The notes under the pieces are model-generated. The model saw only the letters and a program-made list of their open reading frames with translations, was not told the DNA's origin and did no database searches. A DNA stretch of 64,000 nt, from positions 48,847,043 through 48,911,042 of the forward strand of contig NC_057926.1 in NCBI RefSeq assembly GCF_018873765.1, in the 5' to 3' direction. The stretch comes from Telopea speciosissima. Taxonomy: Eukaryota > Streptophyta > Magnoliopsida > Proteales > Proteaceae. The position numbers and the translations under genes are program-made. Below are positions 27-18,132 of the stretch, in pieces. Numbering within the stretch: the stretch's first letter is position 1; each line of letters opens with the position of its first letter.

Positions 27-308
27 CACATGAACAAAAACAATGACCATGACAACAACAACAACAACAAAATGTTCACTTCTATTTCCTCAATTGAAGT
101 CAGGGAAAAGGGACAGGTGAAGGTTAGGGGTGGAAGGAGTGGGTTGGGGTTGATTGCCGCTTTTGTTGTAGCTTTCTCCTTTGTCTAGGTTTCTCTCCCT
201 CTTATGTCCAACACATGAACAAAAAAAATATGTTGAGAGTGGGATTTGAACAACAACAAAATGTTTATTTCTATCTCCTCAAGGAAAAGGGAGAGGTGAA
301 GGTGGAAG
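27..308. repeat. Imperfect tandem repeat with truncated tRNA 3' end
   Basis: Three related blocks occur in a row: about 27-141, about 211-308, and one starting at 309 that runs into the tRNA-Leu gene. Each begins with a CATGAACAAAAA-like string, and the first two continue into AACAACAACAAAATGTT, a 'tctatttcctcaa' stretch and a GGAAAAGGGA(C/G)AGGTGAAGG string. The middle block carries, at 231-251, a 21-bp copy of the 3' end of the tRNA-Leu (T-arm side), after which it switches to the AACAACAAC string. I read this as local duplication whose breakpoint fell inside the tRNA gene, leaving a non-functional stub. Confidence 0.6.
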
Positions 309-330
309 ACATGAACAAAAACAATGACAA

Positions 331-348
331 TAAAAAAACTAAAAACTA
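331..348 (-). terminator. Pol III terminator of tRNA-Leu
   Basis: Immediately downstream of the tRNA on the minus strand there is a run of five T residues and then a run of seven (A runs on the plus strand at about 341-345 and 332-338). T4 or longer is the standard RNA polymerase III stop signal, so transcription should end within about 20 bases of the mature 3' end. Confidence 0.6.
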
Positions 349-356
349 TGTTGAGA

Positions 357-389
<33 letters not shown>

Positions 390-429
390 ACCTTAATCTG
401 GCGCCTTAGACCAACTCGGCCATCTCAAC
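349..429 (-). tRNA. tRNA-Leu (anticodon AAG)
   Basis: The minus strand folds into a complete class II tRNA. The acceptor stem is GTTGAGA paired with TCTCAAC, followed by discriminator A at 349. The D-arm lies in GCCGAGTTGG...AAGGC (box A) and the anticodon stem is CCAGA/TCTGG around loop TTAAGGT, giving anticodon AAG, which reads CUU leucine codons. A long variable arm is present, as expected for tRNA-Leu, and the T-arm is GTGGG-TTCAAAT-CCCAC (box B). There is no intron. An AT-rich TATA-like stretch lies just upstream (about 445-458 on the plus strand) and T-runs follow the 3' end. All stems are intact, so the gene is probably active. Confidence 0.95.
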
Positions 430-559
430 GTGTGTCAAAGGGTTATATTTTTATTTTTAGTACTAAAGATATAATGAAGCAATACCGGTCCCACACCGAC
501 AAGAACGAGCGAACATTCTCACCAGTCACCATCTCAAGGATCGCGCCTTAATAAATACC

Positions 560-663
560 GGCACTGGCGAAGACATCGAAGATCTTAGAGATCTCGCAAC
601 GTCCCAACCGACCAAATTTGCCGGAGAAACTGTCCAGCGAAGGAGTTCTCTCTACTCGGACAG
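560..663 (+). other. Probable 5' UTR exon of SEC61B
   Basis: Unlike its AT-rich surroundings this stretch is GC-richer and ends in CGGACAG followed by GTACTTTC, a good splice donor at 664. The acceptor just before the SEC61B start codon (TTTCCTCCCTAAACCAG, ending at 6142) has no nearby transcription start, so it needs an upstream non-coding exon, and this is the best donor candidate. The exon start is not defined; an AATAAATA stretch near 550 could be a TATA-like element. The assignment is inferred from splice signals and from the frequent leader introns of plant housekeeping genes. A cDNA would settle it. Confidence 0.5.
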
Positions 664-1989
664 GTACTTTCTGACCTCCCATTGGTTTTTTTTTTTAAAT
701 TTGTGTTTGTTGGAAATGTTTATTGCTGGAAAATTCAGAGATTAGTTTTAATGTAGATGAATTCATTGGTTTCTTCAATGAGGGCCCTCCGGATCTGGAG
801 TGAGTAAACCGAATTCCTTGAGACAGATGAGGGATTTTATAGATTTTCATGAAGATTGCTTGAATCTGGAAGTTTGTCTCGGTATTGGTGGTTTTGTTTG
901 GATGGATGGATTGGTCTGCATGTTAGGATAGATTTATTAGTTCTTCTTTTGATGATTTTCTTTGGTAGATATCAAGTAGTTCCCCCTTCCACCCCCATTT
1001 TGTTATAGGAGCTCTGGTGGCAGTTTGAAGAACTTTTGTTTCTGTTTCATATTTATAAATGGAATATTTCGGATGGGCTTCTGTTTTTTTTTTCCTTTCT
1101 TATGTATCAGTGCAGTTTGTGCCGTTTTAGAGATATTCTGAGCTTATGGTCTTAATTTTGTCTATGGTGATTCAAAGTGTTTAGCGTTGGTGCTTCTGAC
1201 CCCCTCCCCCCCTCAAGTTAGGGTCACTTGCTTCCATGGATTTCTGGGTTCTCAAGTTTAATGTGCTTTAACATTCAGAATTTTAACAAATTTGATGGAA
1301 ATTATAGGCGTTCCATTGCAACTTTCTTCGCCTAAATCTAACTTTTCTTTTGGTTTGGTTTTGTCCTCATTTATGGGTTTTCTTTTCTCCCTGACTGTTC
1401 ATTGTTTGATCTTTTTGTTATTTCTGGAAGTTTCTTCCGGTCTTACTTGAATGCCTTGCTGCTGTTCATGTAAATGTATTAAACATGCATCCCATTTGAT
1501 TTCCTGCGGTGAATAATATTTTACAATTTGGAGATTGGGCTTCCTAGCATACATGTGTTATCTAGGAATTTGGAGCTAGGTTCACCAATCTTAAGACTTT
1601 TGATAGTTGATGGCTCCAACCAAGGGGATAGGTCAAGAGTAGATCTCTCTAACATCCAATTCCAAGATTCCTAGAGCTCACTTGAATCATTTATTCTCTA
1701 GCTTGCTGTACCGTTATTTTTCATAGAGAAACTGGGAGGAAACATTGATTAATAAATTGAAGATTATCAGAAATACAAAAGGTCTTTCAATGAAATATTG
1801 GAACAAATGTAAAGATTTGTGTTCAATCAGTACCCATGAATGCCCATCCATCCATGGTCCTTCCAAAATCTTCAATAATTGTGTTCCTCAATCTTGCTCC
1901 TAATTTTTGTGTACTATGGATAGCCAAAACTAAAAATGCTGATGACTCATGAGTCATGCCAATTGAGAGCTTCTTTGTTATATACAACA

Positions 1990-2445
1990 AAATGGAGCCG
2001 TGCTTCCAATCAACTCTATCAGCTCTATTCGAAGTCATACAAGATACATGGACTAAGCTATGCATGTCTTTCTTCACCACTTCTTCTAGGTTTATTTTAC
2101 GCCTGCCCCAGTTCCTTCAATTTGAATCAAATGACTCCTCTGTACTGGAGCATCCCAAGGCCTCCATTGAACATGGCCATGCCATCTCAAACGACTCTCT
2201 CATAGCTTATCATGAATCAGAGGTAATCCAACTCAGCTCTAATATGGTCATTCTTTACTTTATCTATTCTTCCTAGTTTTGCCACACATCCATTTCAACA
2301 TCCCCATCTCTGCTACACTTAGTTTATCTATATGACGCTTCTTAATTGGCCAACATTCCGCACCATACATCATAGGCGGTCGTATGACAGTCCTATAAAA
2401 TTTTCCTTCAAGCTTTAAAGGAATACGCCGATCACACAGCACCTT
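1990..2445 (-). mobile_element. RTE-type LINE fragment (RT C-terminal region)
   Basis: Minus-strand reading frames show the C-terminal part of a plant non-LTR reverse transcriptase. At 2442-2263 lies a segment with KFYRTVIRPPMMYGAECW and an MGMLKWMCGKTRKNR-like motif, typical of the region after the RT domain. Downstream, in shifted frames, come a GHVQ-like segment and the VKKDM...DRVDWK segment (2080-1991) that precedes the element's end. Stops and frame changes break it up. No upstream catalytic domain is present, so this is a 5'-truncated dead copy. A relative lies at 49650-49998. Confidence 0.7.
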
Positions 2446-2879
2446 TCCACTTCATCCATCCTAATAATTTTTTGGGGCCAGGATTGTGGAAATCAGATTT
2501 CAAGATGATTCAATCTTGATTTTCCATGTGAGCAGCTAACAAAATGAAGTCATGTGCTCATAGTACAATGGAAAATAACAATGAATCATAGAAATAAATG
2601 CTCTCATTGTTGTTGTTGTTGCTATTGTCATTTTTTGTTGTTTTCATATAAATTGTAATTGCCCATGGCTTTTGTACCTCATTTATCTTATGTGATGTTT
2701 TAAGGCAGTTTTCCTCTTACAAAACTGTTTATATGAGGGAATTTTTCTGTGCATCGATGATAAGAACTTGATGCAGGAGAATCATTGAGTGGAAATTTGT
2801 TTTGAATTGGATTATATTTGTGTTGGGTCTTTGGTCCAATGTGTTTATTGCAGGGGCCTACTTTAATGAGTCTATGATA

Positions 2880-3200
2880 GGTTAGGAATACGTGTTTCAC
2901 ATTATTTGTTAGTTTAAGTTGGAGCCGTATTTAGGATAGGAGTTGGTTTAAGTCTTTTATTAGTTAATTTAGTAGTCAGTTTGATTACTAGTTGGTTTAG
3001 CCTATTTCTAGTCATGTTTGGATTGGGTTTTTTGAGTTCTATACATATCCATGTAGCCAGCCATTCAGCCATATGATTTGAGTATAATAGAAATTTCAGT
3101 TTACTGCAAACTTGCTTCTGTGGATTCAAAGCATACAGTGTGGGTGGATTCTCAAGGGGTTTTTGTTGAATACCAATATCTCAGCAGGTGATTCGTGCAC
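2880..3200 (+). mobile_element. Probable degenerate LTR fragment
   Basis: The stretch has the texture of a plant Copia-type LTR: repeated TTAGTTTAGT-like strings, then a short-leader-like 'gagttctatacatatccatg' segment, an 'agtataatagaaatttcag' stretch and a CT-rich end near 3200. I cannot place LTR ends, a primer-binding site or a target duplication, so the class is uncertain. Confidence 0.3.
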
Positions 3201-3798
3201 CCTCTCTCTTCTCTTCTTTTCATTTTTTTCTTCAAGTTCTAGCAGTCATATATGTGGTTTCAATGCCAGATTTCAACTTCAACTGTAGTACATCACCAGG
3301 TCAGATTTGAGCTTTACTTTTCCAATTCGTTTCTACAAGTCAGATTCTATTCCTCTACAATTTTTCTATTTCTAACAATCTGATCTGCTATTCCCTTTCA
3401 ATCTGAATTGCAGAGCTCTTTATTCATTCAATTGAAACCTGTTATTTCAATGTAGAGCTGTTATTTGTTACCATAACCTGGACTTCTGGAGAATAAGAAA
3501 GGATACTCTGTGGATTCATAGTTTGAATAGATTCCTTATTTGGATTAGGGATTCACAATACTAGTAGGACTAGGATTCCCTACGACTAATCTTAATTGGA
3601 ATAGGAGTCCTTTGACAAGGATTCATTCACTTGAGTCCTATTTACATTGGGATTATTTCTAACACTTCCCTCGCCATTAGAACTTCTCTTTAATTTTAAG
3701 AAGGCAGTGAATTATTGTCTCTCAGTCCTTATTCATATATATATATTTTTTAGGTTCTATTATTCTGTAATTTAAATCTAACCAGGATTAACCTAAAA

Positions 3799-4219
3799 AG
3801 CTGATGAAACCTGATCCAGATGTGGCTTAAAGGTTTAAACAACATGTCCATGTTAATTCATCAATTTGTTTAGGTTATGAGTTGAGTTGAGACCCTTAGT
3901 TGGACTTGGTTTGGCCCCTACCTTGAGCCTAGCCATTGTGTTGCACCCCTCTGTCCGATGAGCTTGTCCATTTAAAAGAGGAGATCTATTATTGTCCTCT
4001 GACTTCTAGCTGATGAAACCTGATCCAGTTGTGGCTTAAAAGTTTAAACAACATGTCCATGTTAATTCATCAATTTGTTTAGGTTATGAGTTGAGTTGAG
4101 ACCCTTAGTTGGACTTGGTTTGGCCCCTACCTTGAGCCTAGCCATTGTGTTGCACCCCTCTGTCCGATGAGCTTGTTCATTTAAAAGAGGAGATCTATTA
4201 TTGTCCTCTGACTTCTAGC
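3799..4219. repeat. 209-bp direct tandem duplication
   Basis: Two adjacent copies start at 3799 and 4008 with a constant offset of 209 bases. By eye they differ at about three positions (for example CCAGATGTGG versus CCAGTTGTGG, and CTTGTCCATT versus CTTGTTCATT). The near identity points to a recent unequal-exchange or replication event inside the leader intron. No protein-coding meaning is apparent. Confidence 0.9.
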
Positions 4220-4559
4220 TATGTGCTGTGCGGCTCCCACAAAGTGAATGAAGGGAAGCTCGAAGCTTTCCAAACCGATTACTGTGGCTGCTTATGTAAT
4301 GGCGGTGGAGTTGGTGGTAGGTGGGCTTGCGGAATCAGAAAGAAGTGAGTCATGTAGTGCACATGAAAGAATGGTTCTGATCTCGCTTGCTTTTATCTGC
4401 TTTCCTTGCGTTATTGTCTCACTTCACTTGTATGTCTTATGGCTTTTATCTCCACCCACAGTGTGCTTTAGTGCTTTTGAGCTTTTAGTCGGAACAATTG
4501 ACTCCTAGAACTAACAAATTGAGTAGCGATCAATTTCTTCATTTCAACATGTCACAAAA

Positions 4560-4965
4560 TAACAATCAAGTTCAAGGTGCTTGGTCCTCTAATGGAAGAC
4601 AGGATTGCTGGCGATATAAATAGTTGCCTGCTTATCACAAAACATATCAATGGGCCTGGTAATAGGGAAACCAAGCTCCTGAAGAAGAGACTTCAACCAC
4701 ATCAACTCAGCTCTGTAGTATGACACTATGGCTGTATGAGCTATAACTCTATTCTTAGCTTCAACACTAGGCCTCTCCACTGTGGTTTGTTTCTTATTCC
4801 TCCAAGTGACAAGATTCCCCCAACAAATGTACAGTAGCTAGTATTAGGCCTCCTATCACTTTCAGCCCCAGCCTAGGCAGCATCAGAACATCCAACAAGA
4901 TCAATATGCTTATTTGGTCTGTATATAAGATCCTTTGCTGGAGCACCCTTAAGAATCCATTGTGT
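4560..4965 (-). pseudogene. Ty1/Copia pol fragment (RT end / RNase H)
   Basis: On the minus strand the conceptual translation first resembles the end of the Copia RT region, with AKGLIYRPNKHIDLVGCSDA-like sequence at about 4940-4870. It continues into the RNase H region with a TVERPSVEAKNR-like string, in place of the usual TVA-R-S-S-T-EAEYRA, and then MWLKSLLQELGF and FCDKQATIYIASNPVFH at 4780-4589. The catalytic-region order is right for Copia, but stops interrupt the 5' part and both sides end abruptly. A dead internal fragment without recognisable LTRs. Confidence 0.8.
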
Positions 4966-6152
4966 TTCGTATTTCTAATAAGATTATTCCGATCAATGTC
5001 TAAACTACTCTGAACAAGTAAACAAAAAGTTCAAAATGTACAACTTATTGGGTTTTGTTGTGTCCTTTTGTATCCTTTCAGATTTATACACTATAGAATT
5101 CCATCTAACTTGAACAACATCAAAACTTGGGCATGACAAGCAAAAGATTGAGATAGATCTGAACATCACAAGCACCTTTAAAAAACTAACGTTGGTCATG
5201 TTAATCTTGCTAGAAATCAAGTTTTACAATCCAAACTTTGATTCATCTGACTATTTGAAGGAACCAAATGTTAAGGTCTGTTAAGGAAAGCCAAATTAAC
5301 ATAGTCTGGATGTGGACACTGATATATAAACAAGTGTTTTGGGGCTTTCTGTTTTAGAATCTAGTTCTAATGGGCCATGCCCCTGCTTAACATCGACTTG
5401 ATTTATCATAACTGTTTCTTATTGAGGAATATAGGTACAATTGGGGTATCCTCTTCTATAATTTAGGATTTCATAACCAAGATAACTTCTTTGGCAACTG
5501 TCACATGAATTAAGCAGCTTTGGTAGTTTTTAAGTTCTTGGACTCTGTTGATAATTGATGTGGTGCAGTTGTGAGTAGTTACATTTTGAGCTGATTATTT
5601 TTAAATGGACATTCGTTGTAACAAAGTCTTTTTGCTTGGATGGTCAGCATTACACACGCACAAAAAAATTTCAGGTAGGACTGCAAAAGATCTGTTGGTC
5701 ATCCAAAGTGACACATTAGGAATACCTATCATCTTACGGCAATTTAGATTTGTCTTTCAAATTTTCTTTCTAGTATTTGAATGTTGAAACGTATCTTCCA
5801 CACGGGTGTTTCTGATTTAAATCTATTACCTTTTACTTTGGTTTGACGTGACAATGCCTTATGCCATCCTGATATCGTCCCACTGCACAAATTTCACAGT
5901 TGTGAATCCAACGACCAATTTAACACTGAAACAAAATAACATGTTTGCTCTTACCCTCAAATAGCTGGATTCAACCTTTCCCAGTCATGAATAGAAAATA
6001 CTTCTAATTCTCAGTAATTGAAGCTTCTTGCATCTCAACATCAAATTATAATTACTGGGGAATTTGTTTTCTAACATTCCATGAGACTCAAATTTAAATT
6101 TCTGACCTTTTGTTTCTTTTGTTTGTTTCCTCCCTAAACCAGGTCCATAGAA

Positions 6153-6410
6153 ATGGTTGCAAATGGTGCAAATCCCCCAAGAGGCAGTGCAGCAGCCACT
6201 GCCAGCATGCGAAGGCGGAGGACTACCAGTGGTGGCAGTGCAGCAGGGGCAAGTGGAACGATGCTCCAGTTCTACACAGATGATGCCCCAGGGCTCAGGA
6301 TTTCACCAAATGTTGTGCTTGTAATGAGCATTGGATTCATAGCCTTTGTTTCCATCCTTCATGTCGTAGGCAAGTTATTCCTGGTGTCAAGAGAGGCTGG
6401 GAGGTCCTAA
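6153..6410 (+). CDS. SEC61B: Protein transport protein Sec61 subunit beta
   Basis: An 85-residue single-exon coding region. Sec61beta is the small tail-anchored subunit of the ER Sec61 translocon, associating with the Sec61alpha/gamma channel through which secretory and membrane proteins pass. The N-terminal ~40 residues are low-complexity and basic, with a [18 protein letters not shown] segment close to other plant Sec61beta proteins. The family signature follows ([20 protein letters not shown], about residues 38-57), then one C-terminal transmembrane helix of about residues 52-74 and a short lumenal tail. Length matches the family. The ATG lies 10 bases after a strong splice acceptor (AAACCAG at 6136-6142), so the leader is spliced. 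No alternative upstream start was seen. Complete and probably functional. Confidence 0.95.
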
Positions 6411-7944
6411 TAATAACAAATCACTAGTATGTTAACTTACAAGTTGTAGGTTGAAAAATTTTCAAGTTCAAATAGACTATGTTTTGTTTGAGTTCTGCAA
6501 CTTTTTTTGCATGATTGATGCAGGAGCTTGAATCTTTTACAGTCTTATTTCTGTTTGCAAGCATAGTGAGTAATATTGGTTCTCTTTTCACTACGGCTCT
6601 TTCTGGTTTCTAGTAAACTGAAGGGAAGGTAAGTGAAGTGAAACTGGTTTTAAAATGAAAGAGGAAATTTTTGTAATCATTATCTAACATGATTGTGTAA
6701 CCTACTTCAATTTCTTATCATATGTCGTAATTTTACTTTTTAAACAATGTAAAGTAAAATTTAATAACTAAATTTAGAATGATTTGGAGTTTGTGGCACA
6801 TTCATGTTATATAATGGTTACAGATTTTTTTCCCCTTTATTTTTGAGGTTTGATTTAATCTCACTTCCCTTCCTTTTATTTCCCTTGCAACCACTTTGGA
6901 GCGTTCAAGGCAGGTTTTTCCTTTGTTGCCTTTCTCTGTTACAATCATGTTCTTGAAGTCTAATATTATGTTAAGATAACATGTGTTATTTTGCATGGCA
7001 TCGGAATCATGTCATCGTATCAGCTGATTTCTATTAGGATGGGCGCTCACCTATCTGCTGATACGGATCAATTCGTGATCGTCGAGTTTGATTTTATGTT
7101 GGATCCTGAATTTTAAATTCTTGCATTGCATTAGATTTTAAATTTGAAGTTTGAACTGCTTGGTATTCTTGAGCACTTGAAATTTAAAGTACAGATTATA
7201 GGAGCAGGTAATCCAATTCCTTACGACGGAGAAGTGCAAACATAGGTGAGTGTCATACTTGTCACCCAAATCTTCCATATCCATTGAAGTCATGCTATCT
7301 GAATGCCAAAGTTTAATGCCCATATGCTTCTGCAAAGAGGTTTCTATCATGTTGACTCATATTCATGCAAAACAGCTAATGGGTAAGCCCATGATCGGCA
7401 CAGCTAATAAGCATCAGGTTTGCTCATTGTTGCTGATGAATTAGTTAGTGATTGGGAAATTGATTAGGACATAAGATGGGTTGGATCAGGATTAAATTCA
7501 CAGGTTCAGGATCTATTTTTGAATTCTCTGTACAGATCCTCTACTCTATATCCTCCTAACAGATCCAAATTAAAGATTGGATATGGGTGAACTCTTCTTT
7601 AAGATGAAAGGGTTAATCTATTCAATACGTATCATTGGTATCGATTCGAATAAACACGCTCTGATATGTATTGGTATCGATGGTAAATCAAGATTAACAG
7701 AGCCTTTTGGTTTTTTTATTTGATGACAGCCCATTTAAATATGAATGTGTGTAGACATTTTAAGGGTGCCAGTACGTGTTTACAATGTATCAACATTGAT
7801 TCTGAGCATTCCATATAAAGTAAAAGGTAATAGCAGTTAGAGCTAAAATTCTATGCTGAGAAGATCTATCAATACATTTATGTATGAGAAGAGACTAAAA
7901 AAGATGAAGAAGAGAGGCAACACAAATTCCTTCAGTTCTCATAC
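6411..7944. other. SEC61B 3' flank, no gene seen
   Basis: Includes the SEC61B 3' UTR, whose end I cannot place because no clear AATAAA stands out. A MITE-like copy at about 6600-6905 may overlap the transcript end. The rest is AT-rich sequence with short 'cgatac/gtatcg'-type strings near 7015-7080 and 7625-7690, which recur near 53400-53490 and look like remains of a dispersed repeat. No gene was recognised. Confidence 0.5.
6600..6905. repeat. Copy 2 of a ~300-bp MITE-like repeat
   Basis: Shares strings with the region 19624-19950 in the same order: 'gtaatcattatc', 'aaagtaaaat(a)aaatttaataa', 'aatgatttggag' and a right end with 'cccttgcaac'. The right end reads as the inverse of the left end of the other copy (GTTGCAAG...). 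Because the copy begins about 190 bases after the SEC61B stop it may supply part of the 3' UTR or the polyadenylation region. Family not identified. Confidence 0.5.
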
Positions 7945-8860: not shown

Positions 8861-10760
8861 AAAATTAGGTGAGTAATTTTGTAAATGGAAATGAGAAACC
8901 CATTTTTATATAATGTTATAATTTTCTCAATATTTTATTAAAGCATGCGGAGGCACATCAACAAGGCGATCATTACCGTCTTCCAAGAGGGGTGGGGCAG
9001 TCATTTCACCCTTTCTGTGTCTGGTACAGGACGCACACTCCCCCACGCAACTTTCTCCCTTTGTTCTGGGCCTCTAGGGTGCCTTCCAATCCAGTTTTGA
9101 GCCGTCGTTGTATGCCCCAGTGGGTCGATGACCTTTGATGGACCTACACTCCTACAGCTGATTTACAGAGCAGTTGCAGATTAGCAGTTACCCCAAGCAG
9201 ATCACGAGACACCTTCGTGCCCAGAAAGCCTTCAACCTCTACCACAAACTTCAACCACTGCGGCGCCATGACTTCACGGACCTTTTGAATAAATATTCAT
9301 CGGCAAAGGATGTTGAGCATCACACCCTATGAACAGTTACAGAATGTATCAGCAGATCGCCCATATTTGACTGCTTGGTCTCTTTCTCTCTTTTACTTGA
9401 AGAATCTTGTAGACTGTAGAGGAAGAAATCTAATTCTAGCCCATTAGAGGTGAGTTCCCAAAACTCTGAAGCTATTCTTTTTGGTTGCTTTGTATAGGTT
9501 TTGCATAATTTCACATGTTAGTGATTCCTTGGAATGTTGTCATTATATGGTTACCCTCTGTTCTAATCTGAATTCTAAAATCTAAACAGAACTAACAGAT
9601 AAACATCTATATTTCAAAAGAAAATTACACATTTACACTCTTCAAAATGGTTTCTCTTCACAAAAGAATTTTGCCCTTCAATTTTAAGGTTAATTGGGAG
9701 TGGAAACCGAGGGATAAGGGGATTCTGGTGTTGAATAATTAGGTTTATGAACAACATATTTGAAATGTGTTTTTTGCTGGAATCTCAATTGGCTAGAATC
9801 AGTGTTTTGTTGAAATGTTATGTAGGTAGTTTGTCTTCTAATCTAAGTTTTGTTTCCTAAACCCTCTATACAAAGCTCTGTATCTCTAAAGATTATCTCA
9901 CATTTCACTCTTCTAAATAGTTGCTCTGAATTTCTGAATCAACCTTTCACGTGGCTAAAAAAACACACAGGGTTTGCCAATCTACTTCCAGGTGAGAGCA
10001 TTTTGGAATCTTTTTAGAATTTAAAAGAAAACAAAAAGTTAATAACCTTCAAAATCGGGCAGGAATTTTCTAGGGTAGGGATTAATATAGCAACCATAGA
10101 TAGTCTAGACTTTTAATTTCTAAAGCTTATAATTCCTGTACCAGCACTGGAAAACTATGCTAAGAAACAGTATGAAGCCTTACACCATAAAACATTAACA
10201 TTCAAACAAGGGAATATAATCCAGAATCTAAAATGACTGAATCCAAGAGTGAACTTGGTCGCCATAATTAAATGGGAATCCTTTCGCGAACCAAGCCATG
10301 GTAGTTGCATAAATTGCTGGAGATGAGAGAATGCTAGAAAGGGTAGTTGGAGACAAGAGAGAGAGAGAAATTGTAAAAATTAGAAAATGGGAGATTCATG
10401 CTAAGTTTAGATATAGGGGGAGATTAGAGCTGGATTTAAACAAAGAGAGAGGAATCGAACGAGAGGAGAGGTCAAAGGAGAAGAAAAGGAGGAGAATAAA
10501 TTCAGTCTTGTTTCATGAGGACATAACTGGGTGTTGTGACAAGCCACATCTTTAACTTCTTTATCCCTATGGATGTCAATTATGTTCCTTATCCTTTGCG
10601 TTTTCCAGTTAATGACTAGGCCATGTTGTTTAACATCTGTATTACTCACTTTTCAGAAAGATGTAGAACTTCACACTTAAATGAATTTAGTTAATCTCAC
10701 TGAAGTATACATCAAAGCGAGTCACCAGAAAAAAATAAAAATAAATAAAGCACAAGCCAT
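8861..10760. other. Intergenic, no gene recognised
   Basis: Between the foldback elements and the 3' end of the LRK10L gene. Positions about 8940-9060 contain more GC-rich foldback-like sequence (CGATCATTACCGTCTTCC and GGGCAGTCATTTCACCC). The stretch at 9100-9320 is GC-richer than its surroundings but is not open in any frame beyond short segments and matches no family I recognise. 9500-10760 is AT-rich and featureless apart from A/G-rich sequence at 10340-10500. The 3' UTR of the kinase gene should lie just below 10761. Confidence 0.4.
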
Positions 10761-13700
10761 TTAAAGTATTTCATTGATGGGCATATTAACAAGTGATCTC
10801 GAAGAAGAAGAAAAGAAAGGTGTTGGTGGTATTGGCAAAGATTCAAGGTTTCCTTCCAACATATCCACTACTTTACTTATCGATGGTCGATTTGCTGGAT
10901 CAACCTGTATGCACCACATTCCCACTAAAGTCATCTTCTTGTAAATTTCTTCGTCCTCTTCCATCATAGCCTCATTTACTCTTGCCTGTTTGCCTACTCC
11001 AACACACTTGTACATCCAGTTTGCAAAATATATTTCACCAGTTTGATCAACTTGGTCATCAATGTTCCTTCGTCCCCCAACCATTTCTAGTACCATCATT
11101 CCATAACTATAGACATCTGACTTGTGTGAGACTCCTCCAAAGGTTCGAAAAAACACTTCAGGTGCAATATATCCTGCAGTTCCTCTGGCACCTGTCATTG
11201 ATATAATACTGTCTTTTCTAGGACATAGTTTAGCAAGACCAAAATCAGATATCTTTGGACAGAATTCCTCATCTAGAAGAATGTTATGGGGTTTTATGTC
11301 AAAATGTAAAATGCGTGTATTACAACCACGGTGTAAATACTCTAATCCCCGAGCAATGCCAACTGCAATTTGATATAGTCTTTCCCAACAAAGGTGAGGT
11401 CTTGTTTGTGCTGGTTCCATATCATTGATGAACTTTTCAAGAGATCCATTGTGCATGAACTCATATAAGAGAGCTCTTTTAGATCCATCAAAGCAGAAAC
11501 CTAAAAGACTAACTATATTAACATGGGAAGTCTTACTAATGGTTGCAACTTCATTAATGAATTCTCCTCCATCACCTTTAGAATCATTCAAGATTTTCAC
11601 TGCAACCAGATGGCCATCCTCTAACTTCCCTTTGAATACACTGCCATAACCACCTTGGCCCAATTTTTCTTTAAATGAGCTGGTCATTTTCTTGATATCT
11701 GAATAACTATATCTTTTCATATTTGGCGACCCATAAGTCTTTAGAAAATCAGCAACAATTTGAGCAGTTCTTCTTCTATTCAAATACCATTTTCTCAAGT
11801 ACCAGAGGATTGTGGCTAATATTGCTGCATAACCAATGAATGACAAAACTGTAAAAAAAAAAGAAAAAAAAATTAGAATCATGTACAATACAAAATGATT
11901 ATACTACATGTCAGTATGTCACATTAATGTCTACAGTAAAAATTCTACAGGCACACTTTCACCACTGGTTCTGCCTTATATTAGAGTGGGGCCTATTGGG
12001 ATGATGTGATTGTGGATAGTCTCTATAACTTGTGGGGTTAACACTCCTCTATGATATTTCCAAAGAACTTATCTCATTGTCTTATCAAGCTTCAGGAATG
12101 GAATACATGCATATGACTTTCCTAAACTCAACTTTTTAGTAAATGTTAAACAGGAATGAAGAGCTGATATACCTGAGATGATCTTCTTTGCCAAACTTAT
12201 CTGGGGCACTGCAACACAATCATAACATTGATTAGCTTTAACTAAAAGAATGATGGAACTAAAACCTATAAACCTACCCAAATCACAACATTATCGGAAA
12301 ATCCCAACTGTACCATAAAAGTTGAGCAAGGCTGTGCATAAAACGCTTGTAGTTCCTTTCATTTAAATTGTTTTAGATATGTTTACTTTTCCAAATTAGT
12401 TTGTCAAGTTGCAGGGGAAATGACCCATAAATAAACAAGTTTGTGCATCACTGACTGGAAGATTAAATGATAGGTCTTTAGTTAATTATAAAAATAACAG
12501 GATTGATCACTAGGAACTCTTGGTGGTTTTCCTCGGGTGGAGTTTCTATTGACGTTGGAGTCATGAGATTTTAGGGGTGGGGAAAGGGTATTAATATCCA
12601 TTGAAGAGAAGTCCCAAACTGGGAATGAGAAGAGACACTAATTCCTATCCATCTCCAATAAATGCATCTTTATGCACAGAAAATTGAAAATCTGGAGGCT
12701 ATATTAAGATTCATTTGCAAAGATGCAAGTGATTTTCACTAGCTGAAATACAAAATGTGTTAAGTGATGCAGTTAATGACCAGTTGGGCTTTGGTGAGGT
12801 GTAAATTCTGGCAGTTTAATGTTTCAGATTTTTACCTCTAGTTTGAGATTCATTCATGGCTGAGGGCTATTATTTTTCTGATTTGATTCTCTCTATCTGA
12901 TGTTGTATTTGTTGTGGTTTTCCTATTTAACCAAAACTTGTTAGAACTGGACTTCTGGGGCTTTGAACGATTTGATCATCTTTAGTAATCTTTGAGCTTC
13001 TTATAGTTTCTCCTTCTGCCTAGGCTGAGATCGTTCTGTTCGTTGTTCCACTATTTCTTTTCTGATTTGATTCTCTCTATCTGATGTTGTATTTGTTGTG
13101 GTTTTCCTATTTAACCAAAACTTGTTAGAACTGGACTTCTGGGGCTTTGAACGATTTGATCATCTTTAGTAATCTTTGAGCTTCTTATAGTTTCTCCTTC
13201 TGCCTAGGCTGAGATCGTTCTGTTCGTTGTTCCACTATTTCTTTGCCTTGTTTTCCTTGGGGTGTTGTGCATCTTGTTCAATTCCCTGTTGTCCTTCATT
13301 TATAGAGCTTATTCAACTTTTACCGTTGAGTCCCCCCCCCCCCAAAAAAAAAAAAAAGACCAGAAAAGTCGTGCCGGGTTGAGGTCAGCCCTGTTTAGAA
13401 TTGGACTGAGCTGAAATTTTATAAATAGATAATCTGTGCAGTATCCATGTGGATCCCCTTGTACTTATGCCATGTTTCGTTTACTACTCAGTAGTATTGA
13501 TAGTGAAGCCTAATCAATGGGGCAACAAGGGATGGTCAGATAAGGAAAGACCGGCACGGCCACAAGGCCACACAACCCCAAGATGTAGGTATGTGCATGA
13601 ACTCCTTACCATACTTGTATGCATGTGAGATTTTTTTTTTTAAGGGTAAAATACATTTTGAGGTATCCAATGTTTAATCTACCTAACATTTTTAAAACTA

Positions 13701-16700
13701 CGTTTGAGGTACCCAAGCATAAACTATGTTTAGGAGGTCATATGATGATGTAATAACCAAAATGCCCCAAATTCTTATATTTATGTCTAAAAAAAAATTG
13801 TAATTGGAGGAATATGGTTCAACACCACAGTTTCACATTTTTGAACCTTTGATTTAGATCATACCCGTTCATATAATATTTTGAATCATGACAAATAGAA
13901 TGGTACATTCTGATTTAAGATCACACCATCAATATTTTCCAATATATTCTAATTTATGATTCAACCTTAATGTTTTAACATTTTTAAATGTTTGATTTGT
14001 ATTGTAATAAATTAATTAGTATTTTAAATAATGATTAACATAATTATGCAATCTAATAGAAGATCAAACCACTATGAAATTCTAAATATTTCAAATGGAA
14101 TGATACAATTTAACCATTATATTTTAGCTGTTTAGATCTTTGATTTGCATTATGATTTACTCTTGTGTTTCTCATGAATTAAAATCATGATGCAAATTGA
14201 AGGACTAAAAGTTTTGAAAAAAATAATGGTTGAATTGTATCCTTTTAATTGAAATCTTTTAGATTATGATGGCCATCTAATCTCATATCATGTTCTACCA
14301 TTAAGTTTGTTGTGGTTTAAAATACTAAATGACTGGTCACGATTCAAATTAAACATTGAAAAATGTTAAAACATTAAACTTGAATCACATCCTTCAAATT
14401 ATAATATTTTGAAAGATCTAGAAACATGGTGTTGAACTATATCCTTTCTATTGGAATCTTTTTGATAGATAACATTATTTGTGTTTGATACTCTTAATTT
14501 AGTTTTTAAAACATAGGTAATTTACATATACCACCCCTGAGGTTTGACGAAAATATGATTTTACCCCTTAGTTTTGGAAAATTTTGCGTACCCCCCTGAG
14601 GTTTGCAAACGGTAACAAATAAACCCATTCCTTCAATTCATGGCTAACAGTGTTAAAAACATGGAATGAAATGACAAAATTGCCCTTACAAAGAAAAAAA
14701 AATATCTGCAATATCCTAAACCTCATCTTCTTCCTTGTCCCTCTTGTTTTAGCTTCAATCTCTCTTCTTATGGTGTTTATCCCAATCCCAATCCCAATCC
14801 CACCTTTGGTACCGTGGCTGTACCACCGTATCCTTCAAATTCTGCCGGTGCAGGATTTGTTGGACTCACCACAAGCACTACTAATATCATAAACCCTAAT
14901 TCTCAAACCCTTGTGTATGAGGGATTGGATTCCTTTCCAGGTTCTGTTGATTCTAAGGTGTCTCTTTCTAGCCAACAAGGGTTTGGAACAGAACCGCTGG
15001 TCATGCCGGCGATGCCGCCGTTGGGTTTCACGCCCAACTCACCCACGTTGTGGCCATACTCCAACGATGATGCTTACCCGGTTTCTTGTCTTTGGGATGT
15101 TGGAACAGATTCTTTCTGGTGCGATTTCTGATTTTTTTTGGTTTTTTCTTCCCTCAAGCCTCCATTGATACATAAGGCTTCCCTAATTTATATTATGTGG
15201 AAAGCTGTTCTTCCAAAGAAAATGAAATAAGAGACATAACTGGGGAAGAGTGACCCATGATTTGTTCCCAGGGTTATATTTCTCAGCAGTGTTTAAGATC
15301 TCTGTTCCCCTGGCTCTCATGGCAATCCCACCTGCAACACAACCCATGTCACCGCAACTGGCAGATGCAAAGAGGCACCTTGGATCGATCATGGAAGGAC
15401 CCTTGAACCATTTGTTGGTCACCAGTTCATACCTCCAAATTGCCATACCTTCAAACTCCCTACCTGAAACAAGCAAATGGGTTCCTGCAGAGAGACTCCT
15501 TATCGCCGGAGGCAAAGCAAGCGTCCGACGGCAAAACAGGGAGCTTCCTGCAAGAAGTGAATTGAACCCTAGAAATTCTCTCTTTGTGCTCATCTATTTA
15601 GTTCAAGTGCAACTGAACCCAATTTGACACCTTTGACAAGATCAAAGGCTTGATTGATGTCTTGAAGATGGAATTGATGGGAGGAAAAGATCTGTTATTT
15701 GATCTTACACCAGGTGCCTATCACTGATGATGCGCAGATCTTATAATCAAGTTTCAGGTATTGGGTCATGGAACATTCGGTGTTGATCCATTTGAAAAGA
15801 ATTGCAAAGAAGATCTGTTATTTGATCTTACACCAGGTGCCTATCTCTGATGATGCGCAGATCTTATAATCAAGTTCCAGGTATTGGGTCATGGAACATT
15901 CGGTGTTGATCCATTTGAAAAGAATTGCAAAGCTCTTCTGTTCATTCAGTTCAATCTCAATGTAATTAATAGGGATTTAGGGTTTGGTGAAGAAATTCTT
16001 TCCTTTTTTATATATATAAAAACGTCCCAAATTTTGGTTAAACACTCTCTCTGTTGAGTATATCTAGCAGTAGCTTCAGTTCTAAAGGAAGGAAGATGAG
16101 TTTCAGGATATTTTTTTTTCTTTGTAAGGACAATTTTGTCATTTCATCCCATGTTTTTAACATTGTTAGTCATGAATTGACGGAATGGGTTTATTTGTTA
16201 CTGTTTGCAAACCTCAGGGGGGGGGGGTACGCAAAATTTTCCAAAACTAAGGGGTAAAATCATACTTTTGTCAAACCTCAGGTGTGGTATGTGTAAATTA
16301 CCGTTAAAACATTAGATATCTTAAATGTTATTTCTTCAAATATTGGGTACCTAAGGTGTAATTACTCTTTTCTTATTATTATTGAATTAGAACAAAAAGG
16401 TGAGATGGTTGAGCATGGCACAAGAGACTAGAAGCTTGAAATCCTTTGTTCACTATGTTCTTGTTTTCATAGACTTAAAAGCTTCAATTTTTATGTTAGG
16501 AACCAATTTCTAGCTTTATATACAACTTTAAAGACCAGACAACAATAATCTCATCTAGAAAACTTACCAATAATGCAGCTTTGACGTTGAGGTCCCGGGG
16601 AGCAAAAACACCAGAACTCTTCTTCATAGAATCCGCAGCGGCCACCGCTCCCTCGGCATTCACTGCAATTACTACTCACAGTCTCATTCCATTGCAACTG

Positions 16701-17339
16701 AAACCCTCCCTCTACCAATCCTGCGTAGCCCATATCTAGTAATTGCACATAACTCATCATCCAATAATACTTCGCTACAGGTGCAATCACTATAGGAGCA
16801 CAGGTCTTAAGAGAATCATTCAGGTTTGCCAATCCCAAATCATGTTGGTAAAAGGCGTAAGAGTGATTCCCAGTGTTGATGCTGGAGCAATTAATGGGAA
16901 GATATCCATAATTGGGTGGAACTGGCCTTGTACAATTGAAGTAAAAGATAAGATTTTCAGTATTTTGACTATACACGAAAGGAGAGCCATTGAAGCTTAA
17001 ATTCCGCAGAGGAATATGGCAATCGTTTTGCAGTGCTTCGGTGCTGACTACCGAAACCAAGTTATCAGCGTAGGAGATGTTTCTGATAAGGTATTTATTA
17101 CCAGATATGAGTATCATTGGCTCTTCATTTTCACAGGTAACCTCGAATCCTGGGTAACCGCAGTAGGAGTCTTGTATGAGAGAAATCCAAAAAGGGTAGC
17201 TTATGTCTGTGCCATTCCCGCAGCTCCTAGGTATGCAAGCGTCGAATTTTGGATCTGCTGAGTGAGCTTCTGGTAAGCAGATTGCCAGGAAGAAGGTGTT
17301 GATGATTAAAAACTTGAAGAAAAAGTTCTGGTGATCCAT
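10761..17339 (-). CDS. LRK10L: LRK10L-type receptor-like kinase, 3 exons
   Basis: Spliced from exon 1 (17339-16568), exon 2 (12208-12173) and exon 3 (11848-10761) into 631 residues; both introns are phase 1 and GT-AG. Residues 1-28 are a signal peptide (start MDHQNFFFKF). About 34-96 form a GUB_WAK-type wall-binding domain (CIPRSCGNGTDISYPFWI, CGYPGFEVTC), and about 230-250 a Cys-rich WAK-associated end (NCSECRGSGGRCGFY). One transmembrane helix spans about 267-287. The cytoplasmic kinase has glycine loop GQGGYGSVFKG (from 333), K354 in VAVK, catalytic loop HFDIKPHN with D453, DFG at 471 and APE at 498. HFD in place of HRD makes it a non-RD kinase, as in LRK10L/PR5K relatives and many immune receptors. 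An upstream in-frame ATG at 17498 would bury the signal peptide, so 17339 is preferred. No frameshift seen. Ligand and pathway cannot be told from sequence. Intron 1 (4.4 kb) hosts a Pack-MULE. Confidence 0.9.
12877..13244. repeat. 184-bp tandem duplication, apparently perfect
   Basis: The segments 12877-13060 and 13061-13244 read the same base for base as far as I can follow (both begin TCTGATTTGATTCTCTCTAT and end CCACTATTTCTTT). The unit has no coding content and lies in intron 1 of the receptor kinase. Perfect identity means a very recent duplication or an assembly artefact. Confidence 0.9.
14750..15131 (+). pseudogene. Captured gene fragment, unidentified product
   Basis: An ATG-less reading frame stays open for about 125 codons. 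It starts in a Pro/Asn-rich stretch (YGVYPNPNPNPTFGTVAVPP) and ends in SCLWDVGTDSFWCDF followed by a stop at 15129-15131. Base composition is GC-richer and more gene-like than the flanks. The Ser/Pro/Gly-rich composition and short aromatic-acidic tail look like the C-terminal, non-DNA-binding end of a plant transcription factor, but I cannot name a family. It lies wholly between the Pack-MULE arms and opposes the kinase gene's direction. Confidence 0.55.
15236..15593 (-). pseudogene. Captured F-box/kelch-repeat gene fragment
   Basis: About 120 codons on the minus strand resemble the kelch portion of plant F-box/kelch proteins of the SKIP11/At1g74510-like group: SAGTHLLVSGREFEGMAIWR, then YELVTNKWFKGPSMIDPRCL, an ASASCGDMGCVAGGIAM stretch with the kelch Gly-Gly pair, and ILNTAEKYNPGNKSWVTLPQ. 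Such proteins are substrate adaptors of SCF ubiquitin ligases. The F-box and remaining kelch blades are absent and the frame runs into unrelated sequence after LPQ, so it is a fragment captured by the surrounding Pack-MULE. It is in the sense direction of the kinase gene whose intron it occupies. Confidence 0.8.
15688..15933. repeat. 123-bp tandem duplication inside the Pack-MULE
   Basis: Copies 15688-15810 and 15811-15933 share AGATCTGTTATTTGATCTTA through GAACATTCGGTGTTGATCC with about two visible differences (CTATCACTGA versus CTATCTCTGA, AAGTTTCAGG versus AAGTTCCAGG). The unit may be part of captured sequence upstream of the F-box fragment. No protein match recognised. Confidence 0.9.
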
Positions 17340-17499
17340 CTTCAGTATAAAAAACAAAGACGGCGAAAGTTTATACTTATGGAGGAATTTTTTAGCAGGA
17401 ATCATTATAGATAAGGGAGATTTTCTGGTGCAGAGTTCTTCTATAAGGTCAGGTAGGGAGGAAGTTAGAAAGACTATTGGCACTTCTCTTCTGACCAAA

Positions 17500-18132
17500 C
17501 AGATTCTAAGCTCATCACCCTCTTTCCCGGGACAAGTGGGGTTTTTTTTTTTTCTTTCTACTTTTTAAATGATAATAGAAAATGAGAGAACTTCGGCTTT
17601 AAGCAGCCTTCTTTGAATTCACTGAATTATTTGTTCCTATTCTATCAAAAAAAAAAAAAAAAGAATTATTTGTTTCTATGAAGCTTCAATAACAAGAGGT
17701 CTCAATCAAAGTGACCAAATTTAACAATCAATTCTATTCTATTATTTTTTATAGAGATTAGTCAGAGGCCTAAGTTTCCACGTGTCTTCATTCGATTCGA
17801 TGGTCAACCAACTAGACTTACTCTTCTAAATTTTTTAATATAAATAAAAAAATGAATGAACATAATTACTCAATTACAAATAAATACTTCCTTTTTTTTT
17901 TTTATTATAAAGTTGATTGGCGTGTTATGGGTTTAAGGCAATTATTTTCTAAAAAAAATTTAAATTTAATAACACTAGTCTCTACCTTCATAAAATCCTA
18001 TATTTGAGAGTCTTATTTTAAGGAAATCCCTATTTTAAAAGAGTTAAGATAACAATCAAAGATGGCGACTTTATGAAGTTCATCAAATTTCAACCCATAC
18101 CATATAGATATAGGCAATATGTCAATAACCCC

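Follow-up and report, generated by a model that had tools for sequence, protein, structure and literature searches.

We analyzed a 64-kb window of C11 in the genome of Telopea speciosissima (822.9 Mb), the genome that was searched throughout. An LRK10L-2.1-like kinase gene lies here on the minus strand, and its first intron holds a MULE-type element of 1789 bp (window 14515-16303), bordered by terminal inverted repeats (TIRs) of ~220 bp and set in an older repeat. The features discussed below are as follows, with their basis in brackets.

10761..11848, minus strand: host exon 3, protein kinase domain (domains, database protein P0124)
12173..12208, minus strand: host exon 2, 36 nt (splice reading, P0124)
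12209..16567, minus strand: intron 1 of the LRK10L-2.1-like host gene (splice junctions read from the sequence, in agreement with P0124)
13642..16375, ends approximate, no strand: older palindromic dispersed repeat split by the element (self-complementarity, fold, relatives, empty sites)
14506..14514, no strand: left 9-bp target site duplication (TSD), TTAAAACAT (sequence; single copy in empty sites of related repeats)
14515..14736, plus strand: left TIR (self-alignment; genome-wide terminus family)
14727..15238, approximate, plus strand: ABI4-like segment A, the C-terminal coding half (stop at 15129-15131) and the start of the 3' flank (donor collinearity)
15242..15564, minus strand: At3g27150-like kelch segment, set into the ABI4 flank (96% to its donor at C3:3.48 Mb)
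15332..15547, minus strand: hypothetical cryptic exon, 216 nt, phase 1-1, open (acceptor TTCACTTCTTGCAG, donor CAG/GTGGGA, cut between CAG and GTGGGA)
15565..16082, approximate, plus strand: ABI4-like segment B, downstream flank (collinear with segment A in the donor)
15687..15932, plus strand: 123-bp tandem duplication in segment B (L009, L010, and the donor each have one unit)
16085..16303, minus strand: right TIR (self-alignment)
16304..16312, no strand: right 9-bp TSD, TTAAAACAT (sequence)
16568..17339, minus strand: host exon 1, GUB_WAK_bind and WAK_assoc ectodomain (domains, P0124)

A preliminary description of this DNA had placed the element in intron 1 of an LRK10L gene. Our splice reading agrees, with exon 1 ending at 16568 and exon 2 running from 12208 to 12173. 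P0124, a 631-aa LRK10L-2.1-like kinase of T. speciosissima, is 100% identical over the 70 residues queried; this database protein has the same splicing as read here and lacks the element sequence. Splicing most likely removes the window copy along with the intron, leaving it without coding function. Nothing here demonstrates a change to the host protein or a consequence for the host gene. Rfam gave 0 matches over 10500-17700. The 64-kb window also contains two-copy tandem duplications at 3799-4220, 12867-13244, and 15687-15932, with units of 123-209 bp that each match at 98%; two of these three fall in LRK10L intron 1.

The TIRs, first put at about 200 bp, pair between 14516-14736 and 16302-16085 with 88% identity over 227 columns, gaps counted, and the arms differ at 11 of 186 ungapped positions. 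The target duplication is likewise perfect, as had been claimed: the 9-mer TTAAAACAT at 14506-14514 recurs at 16304-16312, and the window holds it three times on the plus strand and twice as its complement. Genome-wide, 903 termini match the 31-base terminal pattern with at most one mismatch (reversed-pattern control, 0), and viral contigs gave 0 matches to it. The six TIR siblings whose ends were read (L014-L019) are all flanked by perfect 9-bp TSDs, judged by eye. The element is free of transposase, as TIRs and captured pieces fill nearly all of its 1789 bp. Judged by its TIR length, its TSD, and captured fragments with donors elsewhere in the genome, it is a Pack-MULE, as originally proposed, and its link to MULE transposase is one of structure.

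Just inside at least one TIR, five of the six siblings (L014-L018) carry a palindrome of ~45-59 bp that is 88-96% self-complementary. The window copy has this palindrome on neither side (near 14705 and 16112); of two further copies introduced below, L009 keeps the right one and L010 the left one.

The flanks of the element belong to an older palindromic repeat. They include a self-complementary stretch at 13934-14417, and once joined, the flanks form an end-to-end fold (run without a shuffled control). A genome-wide search for relatives of this outer repeat gave 104 candidates, of which 40 were scored, and 95 matching pieces; most are 65-79% identical, and a few short ones reach 90%. Twenty outer-repeat loci were returned for the empty-site comparison, two of them the window itself. 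In nine of the 18 tested, the alignment of the joined flanks runs unbroken through the junction, and the element is absent. The weaker cases are L055 and L057, at 61-63% identity, and L063 and L064, which span 80-90 bp; the alignments of L049, L052, L053, and L055 were checked letter by letter. These empty sites indicate that the element inserted into an older repeat, ~60 bp from the repeat end.

Segments A and B make up the bulk of the element interior and correspond to one collinear stretch of a donor at C8:51.855-51.856 Mb (L011), which has an intact AP2/ERF frame of 275 codons. The captured DNA comprises the C-terminal half of this frame with its stop codon, to the exclusion of the AP2 domain, and ~0.5 kb of the flank beyond. 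The two AP2/ERF database proteins listed for the ABI4-like frame come from Protea and Macadamia. In the window this frame is open, without a start codon ahead of the ABI4-like part, and runs antisense to the host gene. The longest exact run shared by the element and the donor locus is 63 bp. Approximately 0.9 kb downstream of the captured region, at L011 4711-4821 (C8:51.857 Mb), we observed a TIR-like stretch of the element's family (75-76%), which places an element end close to the ABI4-like donor gene.

The kelch piece is ~325 bp long (~108 codons) and replaces ~14 bp of the ABI4 flank. Its donor at C3:3.48 Mb (L012) has an intact frame of ~400 codons; the piece is 88% identical to a paralogue of the donor at C8:4.55 Mb, a gene to which the Telopea kelch protein P0005 is a 100% match. 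It corresponds to residues 117-226 of P0004, a 399-aa Macadamia homologue that is 91% identical to the C3 kelch gene. The Telopea protein from the C3 gene is perhaps hidden in a 90% database cluster, although this is a guess. A distant kelch donor, as an identity of 75% to the best homologue might have suggested, was rejected, since that value is depressed by a frameshift: a 2-bp deletion near 15487, which L009 and L010 do not share, puts the first ~26 kelch codons of the window copy out of frame with the remainder.

The fragment had originally been called F-box/kelch, and only the second half of this name holds. Kelch motifs score above the Pfam cut-off in an open frame of 136 codons, whereas Pfam detects no F-box family in the piece, and no F-box region was captured; P0004 likewise shows no F-box by Pfam at 1e-3. 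The other claims about the fragments are borne out. There are two of them in opposite orientations, the ABI4-like C-terminus on the plus strand and the kelch repeats on the minus strand. Being antisense to the ABI4-like piece, the kelch piece is sense to the host gene, both lying on the minus strand as described. The parental kelch gene sought in the same genome was found, on C3, as was an ABI4-like parent on C8.

One reading of the 136-codon frame and its above-threshold kelch motifs would be a native F-box/kelch gene, remnant or functional, residing in the intron. The preliminary description had named an intact gene of this kind extending past the element's ends as a contrary case; the kelch piece instead stops inside the element. 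It is bordered on both sides by ABI4-like sequence, an intact kelch donor is present on C3, TIRs and a TSD surround it, and related repeats have empty sites. Together, these observations refute a native gene, which we regard as exceedingly improbable.

The ABI4 and kelch composite occurs at three places: in the window, at C11:31.15 Mb (L009), and at C6:53.88 Mb (L010). These come from an interior search that returned 15 candidates genome-wide, all 15 of which were scored; the search skipped very common words. The 9-mers flanking L009 agree at eight of nine positions, and those flanking L010 are runs of A, uninformative as a TSD. L009 has stops in both captured frames; in L010 the ABI4 frame is frameshifted and the kelch frame is open. 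ABI4 sequence lies on both sides of the kelch piece, in donor order, and so the kelch piece must have come second. None of the 15 interior candidates proved to be the expected intermediate, an element with uninterrupted ABI4 sequence.

Three further elements with the same TIRs (L038, L039, and L041) are free of kelch sequence, and their ABI4 sequence ends at the same donor position or positions. In L011 coordinates, the ABI4 ends of L038 cover 2925-3037 (left) and 3786-3831 (right); L039 and L041 retain the right end only, 3676-3832 and 3797-3831, respectively. The TSD matches at 9/9 in all three, that of L041 being low in complexity. The interiors differ. That of L038 matches, at 95% identity across 986 bp, a locus at C2:53.19 Mb with a 659-codon open frame, and this gene piece bears a VARLMGL motif. 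The interiors of L039 and L041 are mosaics of pieces found elsewhere, and the pieces in L041 recur widely (61 candidates, of which 40 were scored). Over ~150 right-flank sites, L039 differs from the three composites by 0.081-0.135, a range like that among the composites themselves (0.069-0.132), suggesting that the radiation may have been quick.

On balance, we favor a lineage founded by a single ABI4 capture, in which the old capture persists as a rim beside the TIRs and the interior has been repeatedly reopened and refilled. The same moderately held reading would have the refilling proceed from the inside in separate branches, with kelch in one, the VARLMGL-type gene in another, and mosaics in two more. 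An alternative explanation would involve the exchange of modules, in which the kelch piece and the sister interiors arrived by recombination or template switching between loaded elements. Modules are indeed shared: the VARLMGL-gene piece sits between ABI4 ends in L038 and occurs in L070 without them, and L041 is a mosaic of widespread pieces (40 scored of 61 candidates). For the kelch piece, however, there is no visible source for such an exchange, as no other element among the 15 interior candidates contains kelch sequence. Exchange is rather unlikely for the whole, while for the sister interiors it is a live alternative. L070 itself (599-2232, at C9:51.10 Mb) belongs to the same TIR family and holds 372 bp of the VARLMGL-type gene piece of L038, with no ABI4 ends.

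We also asked what the substitutions say about the age of the two captures. Unpolarized counts gave 34 shared ABI4 differences at 477 noncoding sites, against a mean of 9.7 private differences per copy. Polarization with L042 and L040 as outgroups covered 491 ABI4 sites (357 coding and 134 flank). Coding differences fell once on the element stem and 10 times on the donor branch, with one ambiguous; the corresponding flank counts were one, three, and two, giving totals of 13 for the donor, two for the element, and three ambiguous. All six shared kelch differences lie on the donor branch. Shared substitutions were thus rejected as proof of a much older ABI4 capture, since the polarizable ones fall mostly on the donor branch. 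The capture times are indistinguishable by substitution counts, and the order is given by the nesting alone.

Private changes at 1157 sites number 10 in the window copy, 38 in L009, and 28 in L010, and changes of the C-to-T type number 5, 19, and 17, respectively. One possible reason for the slow window copy is that its site, within a transcribed gene, is less methylated. The low count could suggest constraint, but the noncoding parts of this copy are slow as well. The kelch piece of the window has two private changes, too few to test constraint.

Taken together, the anatomy argues strongly for a non-autonomous Pack-MULE that captured ABI4-like and then kelch sequence stepwise, is present in three copies, one of them in the LRK10L intron, and has no coding function. 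The anatomy shows that a TIR-bounded ancestor first gained ~0.9 kb of the ABI4-like gene, its 3' coding half and downstream flank. A kelch gene on a different chromosome then contributed ~325 bp, which entered this segment in antisense and replaced ~14 bp, after which the composite multiplied to three copies and one copy landed in the older palindromic repeat of LRK10L intron 1. Against an absence of function stand two open frames, the ABI4-like frame of the window and the kelch frame of L010.

Both captures may have been filler copied in during the repair of breaks in the element. The second looks like such filler, as a deletion of ~14 bp accompanies a 325-bp insert from another chromosome and no TSD is seen around the insert. 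Short shared letters are present at the capture junctions, by inspection. The origin of multi-piece TIR elements is debated between break repair with filler (PMC8277862) and the fusion of neighboring insertions (PMC8903248), as far as the available text of these papers goes. The fusion model, as presented there, fits the kelch insert less well than break repair, as no TIRs are seen beside the kelch piece.

The transposase would presumably be supplied by an autonomous MULE. The genome is rich in the MULE transposase domain PF10551 (827 candidates; the 150 scored all exceed the cut-off), but no element uniting it with these TIRs was found. L014, a TIR element of 4.75 kb, gave no sign of being the partner, as frame inspection showed no long transposase-like frame. 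Nor did L073, the one long candidate that was domain-searched, as the domains inside it are of the hAT type. It spans 6.75 kb between the same TIRs (33-6787, at C1:79.36 Mb), has a 9-bp duplication of low complexity, and encodes DUF659 and hAT dimerization domains on its minus strand, with zf-BED below threshold. L073 is probably a MULE into which a hAT element has inserted.

The sense orientation of the kelch piece raises the question of whether it could contribute an exon. In such a case, some LRK10L transcripts would include the 216-nt exon listed above, or a similar one, which would insert part of a kelch module between the ectodomain and the membrane segment. The candidate was the best-looking of several, its splice sites judged by eye, and a frame-keeping kelch exon is possible on paper. 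Open, frame-keeping candidates do exist on the sense strand: in the whole intron, six acceptors would yield a symmetric open exon of 200 nt or more, and every one of them lies in the kelch piece or no more than 13 bp from it. On the antisense strand, however, where acceptors mean nothing, there are five such acceptors, four in the kelch piece. The sense count thus reflects captured coding sequence with few stops. Because of the 2-bp deletion, the 216-nt exon would begin with 20 residues outside the kelch frame, the database protein P0124 lacks a kelch exon, and an incomplete piece of a kelch propeller is unlikely to fold. We consider exonization very improbable.

A regulatory role would instead have intronic transcripts and the inverted ends of the element give rise to small RNAs acting on the kelch or ABI4-like donors or on LRK10L methylation. 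Exact matches to the C3 donor locus account for 110 of the kelch piece's 305 21-mers, the longest uninterrupted match being 72 bp, so element-derived small RNAs might conceivably match that donor. Captured sequences in maize act as siRNA reservoirs, according to the available portion of PMC13317346. The fewer C-to-T type changes of the window copy (5 versus 19 and 17) hint at less methylation here, although the numbers are small. We regard a regulatory role as an unlikely prospect, if a conceivable one.

Both donors are intact, and the nesting of the captures can be traced nearly to the nucleotide. In the sister elements, the older capture ends at the same breakpoint or breakpoints, beside other interiors. 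The order of captures can thus be tested within one genome. A literature search of partial coverage found no earlier report of this element.

The comparisons that follow draw on the accessible parts of the papers cited. The Pack-MULEs of rice, maize, tomato, and Arabidopsis (PMC3310237, PMC13317346) likewise have long TIRs and a TSD, are non-autonomous, and carry pieces of host genes in several copies with donors elsewhere. The present element does not differ from them in kind; it adds a capture within a capture, the older of which forms a rim in sister elements. Soybean Tgm-Express also carries captured gene pieces and is reported to make new exon combinations by alternative splicing (PMC1947982), but it is of the CACTA type and has reported transcripts, whereas the window element is known from sequence alone. 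In animal Pack-TIRs formed by gap filling or FoSTeST, external filler enters a TIR element, often with short microhomology, and gives chimeric products (PMC8277862); the filler here, in contrast, entered an earlier capture. A parallel in stepwise internal gain is Zm-Pack-PIF cluster 18, which acquired a 163-bp gene piece and, in one subgroup, later added 58 bp from a second gene (PMC8903248). That cluster belongs to the PIF superfamily of maize, with 15-nt TIRs, while the present element is MULE-type, with ~220-bp TIRs, and comes from Proteaceae; here, moreover, interiors also appear to have been replaced. As stepwise gain of gene pieces has already been published for maize Pack-PIFs, the Telopea element belongs to a known class of gene-shuffling elements, of which it is a well-preserved example, and its stepwise captures can be read with unusual clarity.
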